Of a stretch of 57,472 nt of DNA, positions 851 through 30,307 are shown piece after piece. The position numbers and the translations under genes were made by a program. Positions within the stretch are counted from its first letter, which is position 1. Every line of letters starts with the position of its first letter. The notes beneath the pieces are model-generated. The model worked only from the letters and a program-made list of their open reading frames with translations. It was not told the DNA's origin and made no database searches. Source of the stretch: a virus; IMG/VR virus record IMGVR_UViG_3300044648_000205, positions 1-57,472 of that record, one strand, 5' to 3'.

Positions 851-1792
851 TCATGTTGATGTTGACCGCCACTCGAACCGCAGTAGCGCCTCGGGGTAGT
901 AGGCGCCGGACAGTGAGCGCCATCGTATCGTGTTGGCCCCAGGTGCCAGGGGGAATGGGCGCCCGACAAGCCGAATGGAACTCGGCGTGACCGCGCCCGT
1001 GCGCGAGTCGATCGTCACCACCTGGCCCGTCAGCAGGTGCGCGTTGATGGCGAACTCCTGGCCGGTGGTGGCGTTCGTGATGATCGGGTAGTCCACCTCA
1101 CCGGTCACGATGACCACCGGCCAGGTGGACAGGTCGCCCGCGTTGAAGCACTGCATCTCACCACCGATGCCCGACGCGGCACCGTAGGTGTAGTCATAGG
1201 TCTTGTCATAGGTGCGGCCCTGGATCAGGCCCGGGTCGAGCAGGCCCACCTCGTTCGACTCAGGGTCACCGGACTGGTACTTCCACGGCGGGTTCGCGGC
1301 CACCAGCGTGAACTGGATGACGCACGCGACACCACCCAGGGCGTATCCGGGTCGCACGGCGAACCGCAGCTTGCCCTGTGGCCGGGTCACGAGTGCCAGT
1401 CGCCGGGCGGTGCCGTGGTCGTGCTGCTCCCAGATGACCGGCTGACGCGGCCCAGGCAGCCCCTGCGGGCCGAAGATGCGCCGGATGGCCGCCAGGTGCT
1501 GGCGCAGGATCTGTGCCGTGGGCGACACGATGAGCGCTTCGCACTCCAGTTGACGGGGGGCGACCGACTGCGGTCCAGTCAGGCCGCCGTCACGGCCACC
1601 CACCTGATCAATGGGGGTGATGTAGTCGAGCGACTCCCAGCCCTCGGGTTCGGCCACAGCGGTGTATGTGCCGTCCTCGTGCTGGGTGTTCCACCAGTAG
1701 TCCACGCCGCTCTCGGTGAACAGCGGACCCATGCGGTACTGGCCTTCGATGTCCGGGACGGGGAAGGAGGCCACCGGGTTGGGCGCAGTCAT
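851..1792 (-). CDS. Distal tail (Dit)-like / minor tail protein
   Basis: 313 residues. It lies immediately after the tape measure gene (stop at 1797), where distal tail proteins sit in siphoviruses. The sequence has the beta-rich look of Dit-like proteins, with a central GVACVIQFTLVAANPPWKY stretch and a C-terminal segment resembling a carbohydrate-binding module (LAPGANTIRWRS). The ATG at 1792 is chosen; a GTG at 1807 would overlap the tape measure end, and neither start has a good ribosome-binding site. The role comes from gene order and overall style rather than from a diagnostic motif. Confidence 0.7.
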   Translation of the reverse strand: MTAPNPVASFPVPDIEGQYRMGPLFTESGVDYWWNTQHEDGTYTAVAEPEGWESLDYITPIDQVGGRDGGLTGPQSVAPRQLECEALIVSPTAQILRQHLAAIRRIFGPQGLPGPRQPVIWEQHDHGTARRLALVTRPQGKLRFAVRPGYALGGVACVIQFTLVAANPPWKYQSGDPESNEVGLLDPGLIQGRTYDKTYDYTYGAASGIGGEMQCFNAGDLSTWPVVIVTGEVDYPIITNATTGQEFAINAHLLTGQVVTIDSRTGAVTPSSIRLVGRPFPLAPGANTIRWRSLSGAYYPEALLRFEWRSTST

Positions 1793-1796
1793 GGGG

Positions 1797-4406
1797 TCAC
1801 GCCCCACTCACGCCGAAGACGGAGCCGTCGCCGGCCATGCCCCGCTGGGTGGAGCCGGGCGAGACACCAAGCGTGGAGCCTGCGCTGGCCAGGCTGCGGG
1901 CACCGTTGCGGTAGACCTCGCTCGCGAACTGCTGCACGTCGGCTCCCGGCTGCATGATGTTGGTCTGCTGAAGGATGACACCGGCGGCCAGCCCGGCGGC
2001 TGCGCCGGCGGCGGCGACAGGTCCGCCAGGGTTGCCCAGCTGCATGTCGGGAGTCAGGTCGATGCCACCGGCACCGTTGACCACGGCGGCGGCCATGCCC
2101 TCGGCGGCGGCCGTCGCCTTCGGAACCATGTCCTTCAGGCCGAGCACGAGCCCCTCGCCGGACCACACGCCGATCTGACGGAACACCTTCGAGGGGCTGC
2201 CGATGCCCAAGAAGCCCAGGACGGAGTCGACGGCGTCACCGATCAGACCCTTGAACCAGTCAATGACCGCGCCCGCCATGGATGCCAGGCCGTCGATGAG
2301 ACCCCGGATCATGTTCACGCCGGCATTGAAGAGACTCGTGGCCAGGCTGGCGATAGCGTTCAGGATCTTGCCGGGCAGCTCGCCGAAGAATCGGGCAACC
2401 GCTGAGATACCGCTCGATACGGCATTTCCGATACTCGACATGGCGCTAGAAATTGCGTTAAAAATGCCCTGCCAGGCGGACCGAATGGCGTTTCCGATGC
2501 CATTCACAATGCCGGTGATCGTGTTAAAAATTCCGGCCCACACGGTCGAGATTACGCCAGCGACGGCGTTAATGACGACCGTTATAACGCTCAGAATCGC
2601 AGAGAACGCAGCGCCGATAAACGCTACAATCTGCGCCACAACGCTGATGATCAAGTTCAGTGGAGGGATCAGGATATTCAGGATCGTGGTCGCTACGGCG
2701 ATAATCGGCGGCAGCAGCGCAGCGAGCACGCCGGCCACCGCCTGGATGATCGGCATCAGGGCCGTGATCAGGCTAATGAGGGGCGGCAGCAGCGCGGCCA
2801 CCAGCTGGATGAGCGGCGGCACGAGCGGCAGCAGCGCCGCGACCAGCTGCAGGAAGATGGGGATGAGCGGCACGGCGGCGCGCACCAGCTGGGCGACCGC
2901 CACGGCGATCTGCTCGAGCACCGGCTGGATCACCGGTAGGACGGCGGCCAGGCTGTTCTCGAGGACACTGGCCACCTCCTGCAGGACCGGGGCGAGCGCT
3001 TCGAACACGGCGCCGAGCGCGCCGCCCACGATGCCGGCGATCTGCCCGAGGATGGGCAGCAGCGGGGCGGCGGCCTGCAGGAAAGTGGCGACGCCAGCGG
3101 CCAGAGCGGCGATACCGGGAGCAGCGGCCTGGAAGGCCGCGCCGATGCCCTGCACGATGGGCAGCAGGGCCGGGCCGATGGTGCTGGCCAGGTTCGCCAG
3201 GATGGGCGCCAGGGTGGCACCGATGACGCTGGCCACCTCGGCGAACACGGGCATAATCGCGGTGATGATCTCCCGCATGGAGGAGAAGAACCCCACCAGG
3301 GCGTCCTGGCCCTTGGCGCTGGTGGTGAACTCGCGGAACGCGGTAGCGATGTTCTGCAGGTTGACCAGGAATCCACCACCGGCGGTCTGCGCGGCCTGGA
3401 AAATGCCAGCGAACCCGGCACCAAAGTCGGCCAGCGCACTGAACAGCTGCTTGACCGTTTCGATGGCCTGCTTAAAGAAGTCCTGCAGCTTGCCCGAGTC
3501 GGCCGCCTGGCGGATGAACTCACCGAACCGGGTGGATACGGCGGTGATCTGCTCGGCCATGGCGGGCAGGAACGACGAGCCGGTGTTGGTGATATCAAGC
3601 AGGGCGGATAGGGCGGGCTTGAACGCTGGCGCCAGGCTCGCCACGGTGCTCTGCAGGTTGCCGAACAGGCTATCGACGCGACCCACCGTGTCACCCGACT
3701 GAGCGAAGGCCACTGCCTCCTGGGCGGCCCCGTTAAGCGATCCGGCGATGCTCTCGAACATGCGGCTGGCGAGCGGCAGATACGTATCCGCCAGCCCCTG
3801 CACGCTGCCCGACAGGCCCTCGAAGAGGCGCTGCTGTACCCCCAGCTTCATGTCGTTGAAGGCGGGGGCGACCTCCCGCAGGGCGCGCATGAACGCCTGC
3901 GCGTTGGGCGCCAACTTCTCGATGGAGGCGTTGAAGGTCGCGGTGTCTTCGCCGAGCGCGCCCATGGCGTCGGAGACCCCGGACAGACCGATCTTCAGAG
4001 TTGCGGATATGGCTGCGCCAGCGGCCAGGGCGGCAGGGAGCAGACCGGCCACCCCGGCGGCCTGCCCGAGGACGCCGACCAGCCCCACCATGCCGGTGAA
4101 CAAGGCGGACACGCCAGCCAGCGCGACCCCGGCGGCGGTGCCAATCAGCGCCAGGCGCAGCCCGGAAGTGACCATCGAGGCGAAACCACGCGCCGCGCCG
4201 CCCACCACCGACTGCAGCTGACCGAGGACGCGACGCACGTGCTTCGAGGTGTTGTCGGCGTCGTCGCGCACAGCCCGCGTGGGCTCAGCGCTGATGCTGC
4301 GGGTGGCCTCCCGCAGGGCAGCGGTCAGGGTGCCGGTGATCTCGGCGGCGAGCCCACGCGCGTCGGTGCGCAGCCGGATGGCCGCCGTCCCGATCACCTT
4401 CGCCAT
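1797..4406 (-). CDS. Tail tape measure protein
   Basis: 869 residues, the longest tail gene, placed directly after the tail assembly chaperones. It has an Ala-rich coiled-coil N-terminus, then long hydrophobic stretches (residues about 120-160 and 440-700) with repeated LLPLVPPLIQLVAAL-like segments, and an amphipathic C-terminus. By the usual proportion of tape measure length to tail length, a tail of roughly 130 nm is expected (inference). Bases about 2400-2680 are clearly AT-richer than their surroundings, suggesting a recently acquired segment inside the gene. Confidence 0.93.
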   Translation of the reverse strand: MAKVIGTAAIRLRTDARGLAAEITGTLTAALREATRSISAEPTRAVRDDADNTSKHVRRVLGQLQSVVGGAARGFASMVTSGLRLALIGTAAGVALAGVSALFTGMVGLVGVLGQAAGVAGLLPAALAAGAAISATLKIGLSGVSDAMGALGEDTATFNASIEKLAPNAQAFMRALREVAPAFNDMKLGVQQRLFEGLSGSVQGLADTYLPLASRMFESIAGSLNGAAQEAVAFAQSGDTVGRVDSLFGNLQSTVASLAPAFKPALSALLDITNTGSSFLPAMAEQITAVSTRFGEFIRQAADSGKLQDFFKQAIETVKQLFSALADFGAGFAGIFQAAQTAGGGFLVNLQNIATAFREFTTSAKGQDALVGFFSSMREIITAIMPVFAEVASVIGATLAPILANLASTIGPALLPIVQGIGAAFQAAAPGIAALAAGVATFLQAAAPLLPILGQIAGIVGGALGAVFEALAPVLQEVASVLENSLAAVLPVIQPVLEQIAVAVAQLVRAAVPLIPIFLQLVAALLPLVPPLIQLVAALLPPLISLITALMPIIQAVAGVLAALLPPIIAVATTILNILIPPLNLIISVVAQIVAFIGAAFSAILSVITVVINAVAGVISTVWAGIFNTITGIVNGIGNAIRSAWQGIFNAISSAMSSIGNAVSSGISAVARFFGELPGKILNAIASLATSLFNAGVNMIRGLIDGLASMAGAVIDWFKGLIGDAVDSVLGFLGIGSPSKVFRQIGVWSGEGLVLGLKDMVPKATAAAEGMAAAVVNGAGGIDLTPDMQLGNPGGPVAAAGAAAGLAAGVILQQTNIMQPGADVQQFASEVYRNGARSLASAGSTLGVSPGSTQRGMAGDGSVFGVSGA

Positions 4407-6336: not shown

Positions 6337-6920
6337 TTGCTGCCCTTCACCGCGTCCAGGGCGGCCAGGGCGGCATCCATGTCGTCCTCGGTCTCGGACT
6401 GGTCCTCCGTGTCGTCCTTGGCGGCGTCAGCCTCCCGTAGGCGGGCGACCAGCTCGGCCTTCACCCCGGAGTGCGGCAGCTCGCGACCCTTCAGGATCTC
6501 GGTCAGCTCGGCCACGGTGCGGCTCTCGTAGTCATCGGCCGAGTCGGCGGTGACCTCTTCGCCGGCCACGTTCTCGAGGTCCACCGGCTCCCAGCTGGCC
6601 TGAGTGCCGTCCTCGGACACCTGCAGCTGGTGGGCGACGCTGTGCCAGTCGAGGATGATCGGCGCGGCCACATCCGGGTTGGAGGCGCGGTCGGTCAGGT
6701 AGTCCACGAGGATGTCGCGCCGGAACCCCAGGTGATCCAGCTGGACATCCTCGGGCGGGACCTCGTCGTGCTCGCGCTCGCTCCTCGTCATGTGGGTGGC
6801 GCGCAACTCTTCCCACTCCTCGGCGGTCGGCTGCCACGTCGCGTCGGGGGTCTCATCCTGGCTGGCCACGTTGGACGGGTGGAACGGCGAGTCGCCGGGG
6901 GCCTTCGGGTCTACGTGCAT
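6333..6920 (-). CDS. SAP-domain protein in the head-tail module
   Basis: 195 residues, acidic. Residues about 132-164 (YESRTVAELTEILKGRELP followed by SGVKAELVARL) match a SAP motif, a two-helix nucleic-acid-binding fold. The C-terminus is an acidic tail (DDTEDQSETEDD). It lies in the structural operon just downstream of the head-to-tail adaptor, so it may be a minor virion protein or connector with a DNA contact; the role is not established. Confidence 0.7.
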   Translation of the reverse strand: MHVDPKAPGDSPFHPSNVASQDETPDATWQPTAEEWEELRATHMTRSEREHDEVPPEDVQLDHLGFRRDILVDYLTDRASNPDVAAPIILDWHSVAHQLQVSEDGTQASWEPVDLENVAGEEVTADSADDYESRTVAELTEILKGRELPHSGVKAELVARLREADAAKDDTEDQSETEDDMDAALAALDAVKGSK

Positions 6921-15168: not shown

Positions 15169-17856
15169 TCAGCGTGCGCCGGGGCGATCCTTCGTCCACT
15201 GGGCCACGGCGGCGCACGCCTGCGCGCGGCTACCGGGGTTCACGTCCTGATCGCCCGGGAAGTTCAGGTCACCGGTGGCGCACATCTTCTTGGCAGCGTT
15301 CACCGCGCTGGCGATGGCGTGCGACTGGCTCATCCCCTTCTTCTTCAGGTGGTTGGCGATGCGCTTGATGTACGACGGCAGGTGTAGCACCTTGCGCCCG
15401 GCGGCCGTGATGGTCAGCTTGTCGCCCAGGTGATCGGCGTCGTGCTCGGCAGCATCCTCGTCGTCGCACAGATCCACGTCCTCGGCGAGCCACGGGTGAT
15501 CGGCCTCGAGGAGGTACGCCAGCTCGGCCTCGGCCAGCTCGGTGGCCGTCGGGCCGTCGCCCAGCAGCTCGCCCAGATCGGTGATGGCGGCCTGCTGCTC
15601 GCCAGTGAGGCGCTGCGCATTGATCCACGCGATGACCGTGCGGAACTCCTCTTCGCTCACTCCGAGGGCCTGCGTGCCCGTGAGCGGGCCGTCAGCGGGT
15701 GCTTCCGAGTCGGGTGCGTGGATGACCCCGGCGGCCACGATGGACAGCGGCTGGCCGGATGCGACGCGCGCACGGGGAACGGGGAAGCCAGGGGTGTTGA
15801 CCCCGAGGGCGGCCAGCATCTCCAGCTGCCCCCGAACGGTGCGCCAGTCGCCCGAGAACACCGTGCCCCGTGCGCGGTGCTCGGCCACCTCGTCCAGGCC
15901 GGGCATGAGTCGGCCGGCGAACCAGATGCCGTGTTCGTCCTCACCCACGGCGATCTCGAAGGCGGCCGTGCCGGTGTTGTCGTAGTGCTCGGCGGCGGCC
16001 ATCGCGCCGGCCCGGATGTCGGCGTGCCCGGTGCCGATGGTGCCGTAGCCCACCGGCAACGTGATGGCCTGGCCGCTCTCGTCGCGCGCCCGCACCGAGT
16101 GCACCATGAAGTAGGCGTAGCCACTGGCCGAGTGCGGGGGCGTGACGCACTGGCCGGCGAAACCGACATGGCAGGTGTTCCACTCGGCGAGGTGGCCGAA
16201 CACGCGGCCGTCGTCGGTGACGGTGAGCGGCGTGGGCTCGGTCAGCTTCGGGTCGGTGAACCACTCGGCGGGCGGGAGGGTCGCGGCCGACGCCACCAGG
16301 GCAGGCTGGCCGCCACCCAGCGGGTAGTCGGTGACGTTGTCGCCGATGGCCACGCGCAGGCGGTCGAACTCGATGGGGCCGGTGTAGGTGAGCTGCTCAG
16401 TCGGCACGCCGTAGCCAGCGGTGACGTGCGGGATGAACGGCGAGTGCTGCTCGGGGAAGTTGACCTGACCGAGCGCGTTGCGCAGCTCGCTGGCGAGATT
16501 GCCCTGCTGGTATTCGATGTCCATCCGGTCGCCCTGGCCGTCGAACAGGTAGACGGTGGCCGGGTCGCGGCCGTTGTCGCCGTTGGGGTTGAACACGGCG
16601 TGCGAGAAGACGGTGGCAGTGACCGGACCCTTCTGGAAGGGCGCGCGGTAGCTGTCCGACTGCGGGATGGCCGAGCCGTCCTCGGCGGCCTCGGCGGCGA
16701 GCCGGGCGTACTGCGCTTCGGCGTCGGTGAACTCGCGGGCGATCCTGTGCACGGCGGCCAGCATGTCCGCGTCCCACTGGTCCACCTCGTCCCCCAGGTA
16801 GGCCAGGGTCATGTGCAGCTCGTCGGCAGGGTCACCACCGGGGACGGTGAGGATGTTCGGGTTGGCCGGCACGAGGGCGACCATCCCGGACGTGGAGTAG
16901 TCCTGTGCGCCGGGCGTCTCGTCGGCGTCGAACAGGTCCCCGTCGGCCAGGGCGTTGAGGCGCTCGGCGTCGATGGCCGCCAGGATGGCGGTCTGGCCGG
17001 TGACGCACGGCGAGCAGGTGTCGCCGATGTCGGCGGAGCGCCACGCGGGCACCCGTGCGCCGGCGGTCAGAGCCTCGGCGGCCTCGGCCACGGGCATGCC
17101 GTCGAGCGCCACGTAGGCGTCCTGGAAGGCGGGCTGACCGACCAGCGTGGTGGCCGCCACCACGGCGGCGTGCACCACGATGCGGTCCGGGTGGTCACCG
17201 GGCTGCGCGTCCTCGGCGTACTCGAACTCGGCCTCCATGGCGGACAGGTCCACGCTGTTGCCGCGCAGCGCGCCGTCCTTCACCAGCTGGTAGGCGGACT
17301 TCTGCGGCGCGGCCGGCACGTCGTCGTACATCCAGCCCTTGGCGGACCACACGTAGGTGCCCTCGGGAAACGGCTTGCCGGTCGACAGCTGGGTGACTTC
17401 GGGGCCGTCGTGCCGGGTGGCCTCGGTGATGGCACCGACCAGCCACGTGGCGGCGTCACCCTCGGCCCCGTGGGTCGAGCGGGTCTGCGCGTACAGGCCC
17501 AGCGGGAGTGCCCGCGTGGACAGGGCGCCCGGGTTGATGAACCGGCCGTCGCTGGTCTCGAGGCCCTCCACCACCATGACGGGCAGCGTGATGGGGTGCG
17601 CGCCCTCGGGCATCTCGACCGGGGGTGCCTCGGCGGTCTCGACTGCAGCGGTCACGGTCTCCTCCTGGGTGCGCATCGCGCTGGGAACGGGCACGCCCGG
17701 GGCGGCCTCGACATGGACGGCATCAGACAGGCCGGACCCGCACACGCAGTTGCCGGCACCGGAGTGGATGTCTCGGGCGTACACGTGCGGCTCGCTGTAC
17801 TGACCGGAGAATGGCCCCACGCTTCCCTCGTAGCCGGGAACCTCGGTGGTGGTCAT
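15169..17856 (-). CDS. Capsid maturation protease with embedded 2H phosphoesterase domain
   Basis: 895 residues. Residues about 85-255 follow the actinophage prohead protease pattern (LPVMVVEGLETSDGRFINPG; ALRGNSVDLS; VVAATTLVGQPAFQDAYVAL). Residues about 323-513 hold two HxT motifs, H348-M-T350 in ELHMTLAYLGD and H477-V-T479 in FIPHVTAGYG, the signature of the 2H (LigT/2'-5' RNA ligase) family. Residues about 550-705 are the domain common in these head proteins (VFGHLAEWNTCHVGFAGQC; GTGHADIRAGAM; VFSGDWRTVRG). The C-terminus has IANHLKKKGMSQSHAIASAVN. It lies directly after the portal. The protease role is secure by context; the job of the 2H domain is unknown. Confidence 0.88.
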   Translation of the reverse strand: MTTTEVPGYEGSVGPFSGQYSEPHVYARDIHSGAGNCVCGSGLSDAVHVEAAPGVPVPSAMRTQEETVTAAVETAEAPPVEMPEGAHPITLPVMVVEGLETSDGRFINPGALSTRALPLGLYAQTRSTHGAEGDAATWLVGAITEATRHDGPEVTQLSTGKPFPEGTYVWSAKGWMYDDVPAAPQKSAYQLVKDGALRGNSVDLSAMEAEFEYAEDAQPGDHPDRIVVHAAVVAATTLVGQPAFQDAYVALDGMPVAEAAEALTAGARVPAWRSADIGDTCSPCVTGQTAILAAIDAERLNALADGDLFDADETPGAQDYSTSGMVALVPANPNILTVPGGDPADELHMTLAYLGDEVDQWDADMLAAVHRIAREFTDAEAQYARLAAEAAEDGSAIPQSDSYRAPFQKGPVTATVFSHAVFNPNGDNGRDPATVYLFDGQGDRMDIEYQQGNLASELRNALGQVNFPEQHSPFIPHVTAGYGVPTEQLTYTGPIEFDRLRVAIGDNVTDYPLGGGQPALVASAATLPPAEWFTDPKLTEPTPLTVTDDGRVFGHLAEWNTCHVGFAGQCVTPPHSASGYAYFMVHSVRARDESGQAITLPVGYGTIGTGHADIRAGAMAAAEHYDNTGTAAFEIAVGEDEHGIWFAGRLMPGLDEVAEHRARGTVFSGDWRTVRGQLEMLAALGVNTPGFPVPRARVASGQPLSIVAAGVIHAPDSEAPADGPLTGTQALGVSEEEFRTVIAWINAQRLTGEQQAAITDLGELLGDGPTATELAEAELAYLLEADHPWLAEDVDLCDDEDAAEHDADHLGDKLTITAAGRKVLHLPSYIKRIANHLKKKGMSQSHAIASAVNAAKKMCATGDLNFPGDQDVNPGSRAQACAAVAQWTKDRPGAR

Positions 17857-28562: not shown

Positions 28563-28597
28563 GCCGCCCTCGGCACGGCCAGGCATCCGAGGGCGGC
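28563..28597 (-). terminator. Strong hairpin, possible terminator of the RNA island
   Basis: A perfect 11-bp stem (28587-28597 with 28563-28573) and a 13-base loop. It is the last strong structure downstream of the tRNA-like elements. Confidence 0.5.
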
Positions 28598-28620: not shown

Positions 28621-28634
28621 CCGGCCGAAGCCGG
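28621..28634 (-). other. UUCG tetraloop hairpin after the permuted tRNA 5' half
   Basis: A 5-bp CCGGC/GCCGG stem closed by a TTCG tetraloop, 10 bases after the anticodon stem 5' strand of the permuted element. A stable 3' end or processing landmark is possible. Confidence 0.5.
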
Positions 28635-28644
28635 GGAAGTAGGC

Positions 28645-28723
28645 GGGGAAGTGCTGCCGTTACACCATCCCGGCAGACCCTGGTGAGTCCCACCGGGGAG
28701 GGATTCGAACCCCCACCTTCCCC
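28645..28723 (-). tRNA. Candidate circularly permuted tRNA (3' half before 5' half)
   Basis: In transcription order the stretch holds: anticodon-stem 3' strand GGGGA (28723-28719), variable loop AGGT, T arm GGGGG-TTCGAAT-CCCTC (28714-28698), acceptor 3' strand CCCGGTG (28697-28691), G73, a 14-base spacer, then acceptor 5' strand TGCCGGG (28675-28669), AT, D arm GGTG-TAACGGCAG-CAC, T and anticodon-stem 5' strand TCCCC (28649-28645). Acceptor strands pair 7/7 with two GU pairs; the anticodon stem pairs 5/5 and extends to 7. Arms total 65 nt, which with a 7-base loop makes a normal 72-nt tRNA. Loop bases lie outside the halves; upstream GTGCCTA would give anticodon GCC (Gly), which is uncertain. 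Confidence 0.5.
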
Positions 28724-28727
28724 TAGG

Positions 28728-28796
28728 CACACGGGACCGGATTCGAACCGGCATGCCACCCCGTCAGGGGCTCGCTCACCCTTGGCGTACCCGCAT
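28728..28796 (-). tRNA. tRNA-like cloverleaf with 4-base anticodon loop
   Basis: Acceptor ATGCGGG/CCCGTGT (7 pairs, two GU), TA, D arm CGC-CAAGGGTGA-GCG, anticodon stem GCCCC/GGGGT, variable loop GGCAT, T arm GCCGG-TTCGAAT-CCGGT. Everything is tRNA-like except that the anticodon stem closes on TGAC instead of a 7-base loop, so it should not decode normally. It lies 4 bases upstream of the permuted element. It may be a decayed tRNA or a decoy. Confidence 0.45.
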
Positions 28797-29156: not shown

Positions 29157-29160
29157 GGCG

Positions 29161-29232
29161 TAGTGCGTACGGGGGTTGCACCCGTGTCTCCGCCTTGAGA
29201 GGGCGGAATCCGTGCTACTGGACCAACGCACC
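29161..29232 (-). tRNA. Probable tRNA-Glu (anticodon CTC)
   Basis: Acceptor GGTGCGT/ACGCACT, D arm GTCC-AGTAGCAC-GGAT, anticodon arm CCGCC-CTCTCAA-GGCGG (T33, anticodon CTC), T arm ACGGG-TGCAACC-CCCGT, discriminator A at 29161. No CCA is encoded. The T loop has TGC instead of TTC and the D loop lacks GG, so the tertiary contacts are unusual; all stems are intact. Confidence 0.7.
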
Positions 29233-29436: not shown

Positions 29437-30278
29437 TTGATTACCCAGCGCCCTACTGGGCCAGCTGAGTCCGCTGGCGACTCGGAGTCCCTTTGCCCGG
29501 CGGGATATCCGACTCGGCCCTGACAGGCTTCCTGGGACGCCTCGGGCTGGCCGAGCTAGGCGGGTGGTGGTATCGCAGACACCCACTGCGCCGCACTCAC
29601 GCCGCTGGCCACGGCCCCGCTGTCGGTTGGGGCGTCCGTCCGCGCCCGACCACCCGATACGCCGAGGCGTTCGATGGTCTGCCGGAACTTTAGGTCGGGG
29701 CGAGCCGATCGCTACTCGGCTACCTCCTGCCTGGTCACCAGGGTTGCGAAGCCTGGCTACTGAGGCCGGGGTGCGCGCATACACTGCGCCCCTCGGCGGT
29801 GAGGGCAGGTTCGCGGCCCGTCTCTCCCGCCGTGCTAGCAGCGTTGATAACCCAGTCGCAGCCCTGGGGCCGGTAACGAGCCGGCATTGATCCCCCGTAC
29901 AGGTGCACCGCTTCGCGCGCTCGCTCTGGGTGGCAGGCCGAAACCGATGTGCCACTGCTCCGTTGCGATTGCGGCCAGTCTGTCCACACCCCGTAGGGAT
30001 TCTGTGCACGACGTGGCGCCTGGTAGCCGCGAGCACCTGCCACCTGTCCGTCCTCTTTCCCGGCTCACGTACGCCTCGCTTTATGGTCCCTGGACTGTGA
30101 TCTCCGAGGGGGTGAGGTCGTCACGTCGTGCGCTGGCCGACTCCCGGTGGTCACAGGTCGAGCTGGGGAGCGCGTCCGGTCCAGTCTGGGGAGCCGGCCA
30201 GCAGTTCATGGAGTTGTCAAGATCCGGTGCCGTGACCCTCGCTTCCGGCTTCCCGGTGCGCCTGGCCTGACACGAAGA
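29437..30278 (-). other. 840-base untranslated-looking leader of the RNA island
   Basis: It lies between promoter 30279-30307 and the tRNA-like genes. Reading frames are Arg/Ser/Pro-rich, without ribosome-binding sites or family patterns, and many short inverted repeats are present (for example CCTGGT/ACCAGG near 29730 and GGGCGC/GCGCCC near 29420-29450). No rRNA, tmRNA, group I intron core or further tRNA could be identified by eye. Confidence 0.5.
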
Positions 30279-30307
30279 ACATTACCCACGTCCCTAGGGG
30301 GTGTCAA
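30279..30307 (-). promoter_or_regulatory. Phage-type promoter for the RNA island
   Basis: TTGACA (30302-30307), 17-base spacer, TAATGT (30279-30284). No GGAACAAC box follows, unlike the protein-coding units, which fits an RNA transcript. The -35 and spacer lie inside the terminator hairpin 30286-30323. Confidence 0.8.

Follow-up and report, generated by a model that had tools for sequence, protein, structure and literature searches.

The minus strand of the window analyzed here (the entire 57,472 bases of an IMG/VR virus record, with head and tail genes and with distant relatives among actinobacterial phages) carries at 28645..28723 a tRNA-like sequence whose 3' half precedes its 5' half. This locus raises the question of whether a phage may possess a permuted tRNA gene, an arrangement established in some algae and archaea, or whether the scrambled order reflects an RNA of a different kind. 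No permuted tRNA gene in a phage is described in the literature that we searched.

Structure of the element

The arrangement reported in the preliminary description, a T arm and acceptor 3' strand ahead of an acceptor 5' strand and D arm, was indeed found on the minus strand (28723..28645 in the 5' to 3' direction). The 5' strand of a closing stem, GGGGAAG (28717..28723, from sequence and fold), corresponds in tRNA terms to the 3' strand of the anticodon stem; the model pairs GGGGA (28723-28719) and the pairing is extendable to seven, AGGT occupying 28718-28715. It is followed by the T arm GGGGG-TTCGAAT-CCCTC (28698..28714, detected by both covariance models R1 and R2, see below) and by an acceptor-like hairpin (28669..28697, pattern scan and fold) composed of the acceptor 3' strand CCCGGTG (28697-28691), a linker of 15 nt (28690-28676) and the acceptor 5' strand TGCCGGG (28675-28669). 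In the predicted fold this hairpin grows to 12 pairs with an ACCA loop. Two nucleotides, AT (28668-28667), lead to the D arm GGTG-TAACGGCAG-CACT (28650..28666, pattern scan and R2), and the module ends with the 3' strand of the closing stem, CTTCCCC (28645..28651, sequence and fold), of which the model pairs TCCCC (28649-28645); with seven pairs the closing stem overlaps the end of the D arm.

This part-by-part layout corrects two figures given earlier, namely a linker of 14 bases and arms summing to 65 nt: with the 15-nt linker the arms sum to 64 nt. The irregularity suspected at U8 is genuine, position 8 being an A. Both the T and the D loop contain their elbow nucleotides, and the element has neither an anticodon loop nor a free acceptor end. 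The minimum-energy fold predicted for the native-order sequence is a closed four-way junction, its folding energy being only mildly unusual (z -1.9). With the native-order RNA closing in cis in this way, ligation would not be needed to obtain a tRNA-like body.

Statistical support, conservation and genomic context

A covariance-model comparison of the permuted with the native order had been proposed as a check. In the native order neither ARAGORN nor RF00005 gives a match at 28645-28723. For the permuted order we built models from ordinary phage tRNAs rearranged in silico (3' half, spacer, 5' half), R1 from 45 tRNAs without the anticodon stem and R2 from 12 tRNAs opened within the anticodon loop and with the anticodon stem retained. 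The element is the sole R1 match in the window (36.4 bits, E 6e-9) and ranks first with R2 in 460 kb (49.3 bits, E 1.2e-15), followed by a site in the related contig G004 (43.7 bits); at E 0.01 R2 found nothing in 0.94 Mb of other portal relatives. A mechanical scan for the arrangement returned 21 of 21 pairs at the element, a site without equal in 1.3 Mb of shuffled sequence. The real confounder, however, is a tandem of ordinary tRNAs, where the T half of one lies beside the D half of the next, and such tandems reach up to 37.9 bits with R2 in related phages. Since R1 alone cannot separate permuted modules from these tandems, we used R2 together with a cross-pair control, in which the 3' half of each tRNA was combined with the 5' half of each other tRNA. 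The fit of the two halves noted originally (acceptor 7/7, anticodon stem 5/5) was confirmed and was equaled by none of the 6006 cross pairs, which shows that both halves belong to one structure.

The relatives used for comparison are viral contigs of 55-60 kb found via the portal gene (portal identities of 46-59%). One of them, G004, supplies the related phage with the same arrangement that had been called for: it carries the permuted order on its minus strand (6556..6461), and the two aligned blocks are identical to those of the window at 27/28 and 34/38 positions (61/66, or 92%). The linkers, 15 nt in the window and 31 nt in G004 by the same reckoning, do not align, nor do the outer flanks, and the break point within the anticodon loop is identical in both. 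The scrambled tRNA-like element is thus real and conserved, the conservation resting on two members (the window and G004) from contigs of uncertain completeness. It is present in two of the eight relatives examined closely, the window included; R2 detected no counterpart in G003, G007, G009, G011 and G012, all of which have tRNAs or tRNA-like RNAs, its G009 match (37.9 bits) corresponding to two other RNAs in tandem. Public phages, searched at the DNA level for close relatives, revealed no similar element, and the portal profile matched nothing when used to look for a host or prophage.

These comparisons bear on the possibility that the element is a functionless relic, i.e. a Y RNA (see below) or a tandem tRNA pair stripped of its outer parts. 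Its occurrence in just two of the eight relatives would be consistent with decay, as would the decayed G004 acceptor and the altered D and T loops of the tRNA-Glu in the window. On the other hand, the blocks are 92% identical, as compared to 82% for tRNA-Glu and ~71% for alignable DNA genome-wide, and the anticodon-loop break point is the same in both phages. In view of this conservation of blocks and break point we regard a mere relic as unlikely. The remnant of two tandem tRNAs, offered earlier as an alternative, may well describe the origin of the element but leaves the conserved halves and break point in two divergent phages unexplained.

The element belongs to a cluster of non-coding RNAs (~30.3 to 28.6 kb, minus strand; all features of the cluster given here are on this strand). 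A conserved block upstream (30201..30307, TTGACA...TAATGT), which aligns with G004, G003, G007, G009 and G011, is from its sequence a possible promoter of the cluster, although a consensus promoter scan made no call there. Downstream of the element, a strong hairpin with paired arms (CCGCCCTCGG...CCGAGGGCGG, 28564..28596) may mark the transcript end; it has no T run. Immediately before the element lies a tRNA-like RNA (28726..28796; fold, and 24 bits with RF00005, below the cut-off) whose anticodon loop is reduced to four nucleotides, UGAC, leaving no anticodon. Loops of four nucleotides also occur in G012 (GAGA) and probably in G011 (ACCC). Overall, well-armed tRNA-like genes with shortened anticodon loops of 4 nt (UGAC; GAGA; probably ACCC) or 5 nt (CUCAA) were seen at 28726-28796 (-) of the window, at 1501-1571 and 1195-1264 (+) of locus L084 and at 1501-1568 (-) of L085. 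In G004 and G009, as we read the alignment (the unconstrained G004 fold differs), about 28 nt with conserved ends seem to replace the anticodon loop of a tRNA-like RNA whose D arm is of the Ser/Leu type, whose T arm is perfect and whose acceptor stem has 9-10 bp (L081 ~1985-2110, minus strand; L082 ~1353-1490, plus strand).

The cluster also contains tRNA-Glu(ctc) (29160..29232; ARAGORN, and 51.7 bits with RF00005), which departs from the ordinary G004 copy by coincident elbow changes (GG to AG in the D loop, TTC to TGC in the T loop) and by compensatory changes in the anticodon stem. A possible cloverleaf-shaped RNA at ~29690-29795 is closed by GGGGCG/CGCCCC and shows neither a T nor a D loop consensus; G009 has a 93% identical version of its 3' part, GCCGAGTAGCGATCGGCTCGCCCCGACC. 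Further upstream, a 31-nt block (29970-30000, ATCCCTACGGGGTGTGGACAGACTGGCCGCA) is conserved at 97% identity in G004 and at almost the same level in G011.

Permuted tRNA genes, tmRNA and bacterial Y RNAs

The precursor from a true permuted tRNA gene would be cut at both acceptor ends and its two pieces joined within the anticodon loop, the product being an ordinary charged tRNA. As in the algal and archaeal genes of this kind, the 3' half of the element precedes the 5' half and the halves pair as one cloverleaf, with complete acceptor (7/7) and anticodon (5/5) stems in the window; the T and D loops are conserved, and the linker, which would be discarded, differs between the window and G004. Unlike in those genes, joining the flanks (GTGCCTA and GCCTACT in the window, GAGCTA and GCCTGCT in G004) yields no functional anticodon loop with U33 and a purine at position 37, and no bulge-helix-bulge junction was seen. 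Two of the seven acceptor positions are mismatched in G004, a protein scan covering a subset of the ORFs yielded neither a splicing endonuclease nor a tRNA ligase, and the native-order RNA is predicted to close on itself, so that an RNA closed in cis would suffice. In addition, most cousins of the same topology are Y RNAs linked to the Ro protein rather than tRNA genes. The missing U33/purine-37 loop, the G004 mismatches and the Ro-linked cousins make a permuted tRNA gene highly improbable. Of the original proposal, the permuted order and the matching halves therefore stand; the gene whose ends have to be joined does not, given the closed native fold and the lack of an acceptable anticodon loop.

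A PHROG "RNA ligase" match in a head protein was considered and rejected as evidence of tRNA ligation, as Pfam gave only a weak 2H phosphoesterase match. The protein in question is an 895-aa head-maturation-protease-like product (15169-17856, minus strand), and its residues 343-488 match the LigT / 2'-5' RNA ligase-like family PF13563 (E 1.9e-4). A permuted (two-piece) tmRNA, in which the T arm and acceptor 3' strand likewise precede the acceptor 5' strand and D region, was dropped as well: the third acceptor pair of the element is C-G, not the G3-U70 pair of tmRNA, and neither ARAGORN nor Rfam detects a tmRNA.

A closer counterpart is provided by the bacterial Y RNAs. According to PMC11472068, a bacterial Y RNA (6CU1) can be superposed on tRNA, of which it represents a circular permutation. 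Passages in two further papers, with reference to other work, state that phages contain Y RNAs or YrlA modules (PMC12282133, PMC7765460). The Rfam consensus of YrlA (RF02553) consists of outer stems, a 4-bp stem, 4 nt, a T arm, an acceptor hairpin, UA and a D arm, and the element has the same succession of a short stem, 4 nt, T arm, acceptor-like hairpin, 2 nt, D arm and stem. R1, R2, the native fold and the YrlA consensus all agree in identifying a circularly permuted tRNA-like module of the Y-RNA type, located, like phage Y RNAs, in a phage tRNA array. The acceptor linkers of the element and of its G004 counterpart (15 and 31 nt) are longer than that of YrlA. The best YrlA match in the window falls on the element (28743..28625) and is not significant (12.0 bits, E 0.66, against a gathering cut-off of 69), a cut-off that is also missed by Ro-linked phage Y RNAs (best 45.7).

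To place the element among its cousins, two pattern scans of viral contigs were combined with earlier loci, giving 167 sites at which a D arm comes after a T arm. The acceptor strands pair at 6-7 of 7 positions in 38 of the 43 sites that do not overlap an intact tRNA, versus 13 of the 124 that do. Similar elements, mostly unannotated, exist in the isolated phages Atuin, Trina, ScoobyDoobyDoo and Blueeyedbeauty, each within ~2 kb of a gene annotated as a Ro-like RNA-binding protein; these elements are Y RNAs. More generally, Ro (by TROVE, annotation or the wider profile A5) is encoded in 22 of the 27 module-bearing contigs and genomes of 55 kb or more, the window and G004 being included in the count. 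Two outer motifs recur, GTTAC/TACTTC and CAGCAA with AACCTGTTA, the group with the latter encoding a divergent Ro that is missed by Pfam TROVE and detected by the wider profile. A division into Ro-linked and Ro-less modules by Pfam TROVE alone (7/7 vs 0/7) was therefore rejected, since most of the supposedly Ro-less contigs turned out, with the wider profile, to encode a divergent Ro. Still without Ro are the window, G004, G020 and G046, plus the weak or fragmentary G025-G027 and G036; G046 (L313, 63.8 bits) and G020 (L121, 49.5 bits) may represent further Ro-less cases, their contigs perhaps being incomplete. A large Y-RNA-like group of phage loci (L259, L262, L265, L267, L272, L288, L291, L292, L303, L312, L320, L327, L328 and L330) shares the flanks CAGCAAT...AATCTTTCT and AGAACCTGTTA, often with the acceptor loop TTGGTC; the members that were scanned matched no Rfam family.

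Unlike YrlA and the phage Y RNAs beside Ro genes, the element is accompanied by neither a Ro-binding stem or motif nor a phage Ro gene. PF05731, phage Ro HMMs and profile A5 detected no Ro in the phage contigs searched (window, G004 and relatives), and the window and G004 have no flank of the GTTAC/TACTTC or CAGCAA type and no shared outer stem. The distance from the G004 module to the mature tRNA-Glu(ttc) is just four bases, which leaves no space there for a Ro-binding stem. For lack of Ro, of a Ro motif and of a shared outer stem we have not classified the element as a Y RNA, even though it contains a module of the Y-RNA type. It could conceivably be a genuine Y RNA that utilizes a host Ro through an unrecognized Ro-binding stem: the module is the same as in Ro-linked Y RNAs, the outer motifs vary by phage group (GTTAC/TACTTC in some, CAGCAA in others), and Ro is encoded by some bacteria. 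Nevertheless, with no outer stem common to the flanks of the window and G004, and with the G004 module only four bases from a tRNA, we consider this quite improbable.

A Ro-less tRNA mimic as the favored interpretation

The interpretation that we favor, with modest confidence, is that the element is a stand-alone, Ro-less tRNA mimic of the Y-RNA type, probably acting on tRNA-binding enzymes as a decoy or competitor. It is better supported than a permuted tRNA gene. Counted against it are the G004 acceptor-like stem, which pairs at 5 of 7 positions, the unconstrained G004 fold, which differs from the four-way junction, and the insignificant YrlA score.

According to this interpretation, a small structured RNA would imitate tRNA at the elbow and the acceptor while itself not being a tRNA. 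Folding in cis in its native order, with the closing stem in place of the anticodon stem, the T arm, the acceptor-like hairpin and the D arm, it would amount to the circularly permuted tRNA-like module of YrlA minus the Ro-binding stem, in a phage that has no Ro. Release from the cluster transcript may be accomplished by adjacent tRNA-processing cleavages, the G004 module being positioned four bases before tRNA-Glu. The free RNA would then occupy tRNA-binding proteins, such as modification or processing enzymes or tRNA-cleaving defense nucleases. Because it has no free acceptor end and no anticodon loop, such a mimic presumably would be neither charged nor cut in that loop.

The other RNAs of the cluster that have lost their anticodons, with 4-nt loops or a 28-nt replacement, would fit the idea of a tRNA body without an anticodon. 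As a tentative extension, this phage family might make a set of Ro-independent tRNA mimics, acting as decoys against tRNA-cleaving defenses or as competitors for tRNA-processing or modification enzymes. In such a set the anticodon would be removed in different ways, by permutation and closure, by cutting the loop to 4 nt or by the 28-nt replacement; we hold both parts of this proposal as possible rather than probable.

Overall, what appeared to be the first permuted tRNA gene in a phage gives way to a better-supported interpretation. Phage tRNA arrays commonly contain permuted tRNA-like modules, which tRNA finders, and for the most part Rfam, overlook. The present element is unusual among them, as its virus is devoid of both a Ro protein and a Ro-binding stem, the usual companions of such RNAs. 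It indicates that Ro need not accompany the tRNA-like module of Y RNAs, and it makes testable the question of whether this module alone acts on tRNA-binding proteins.
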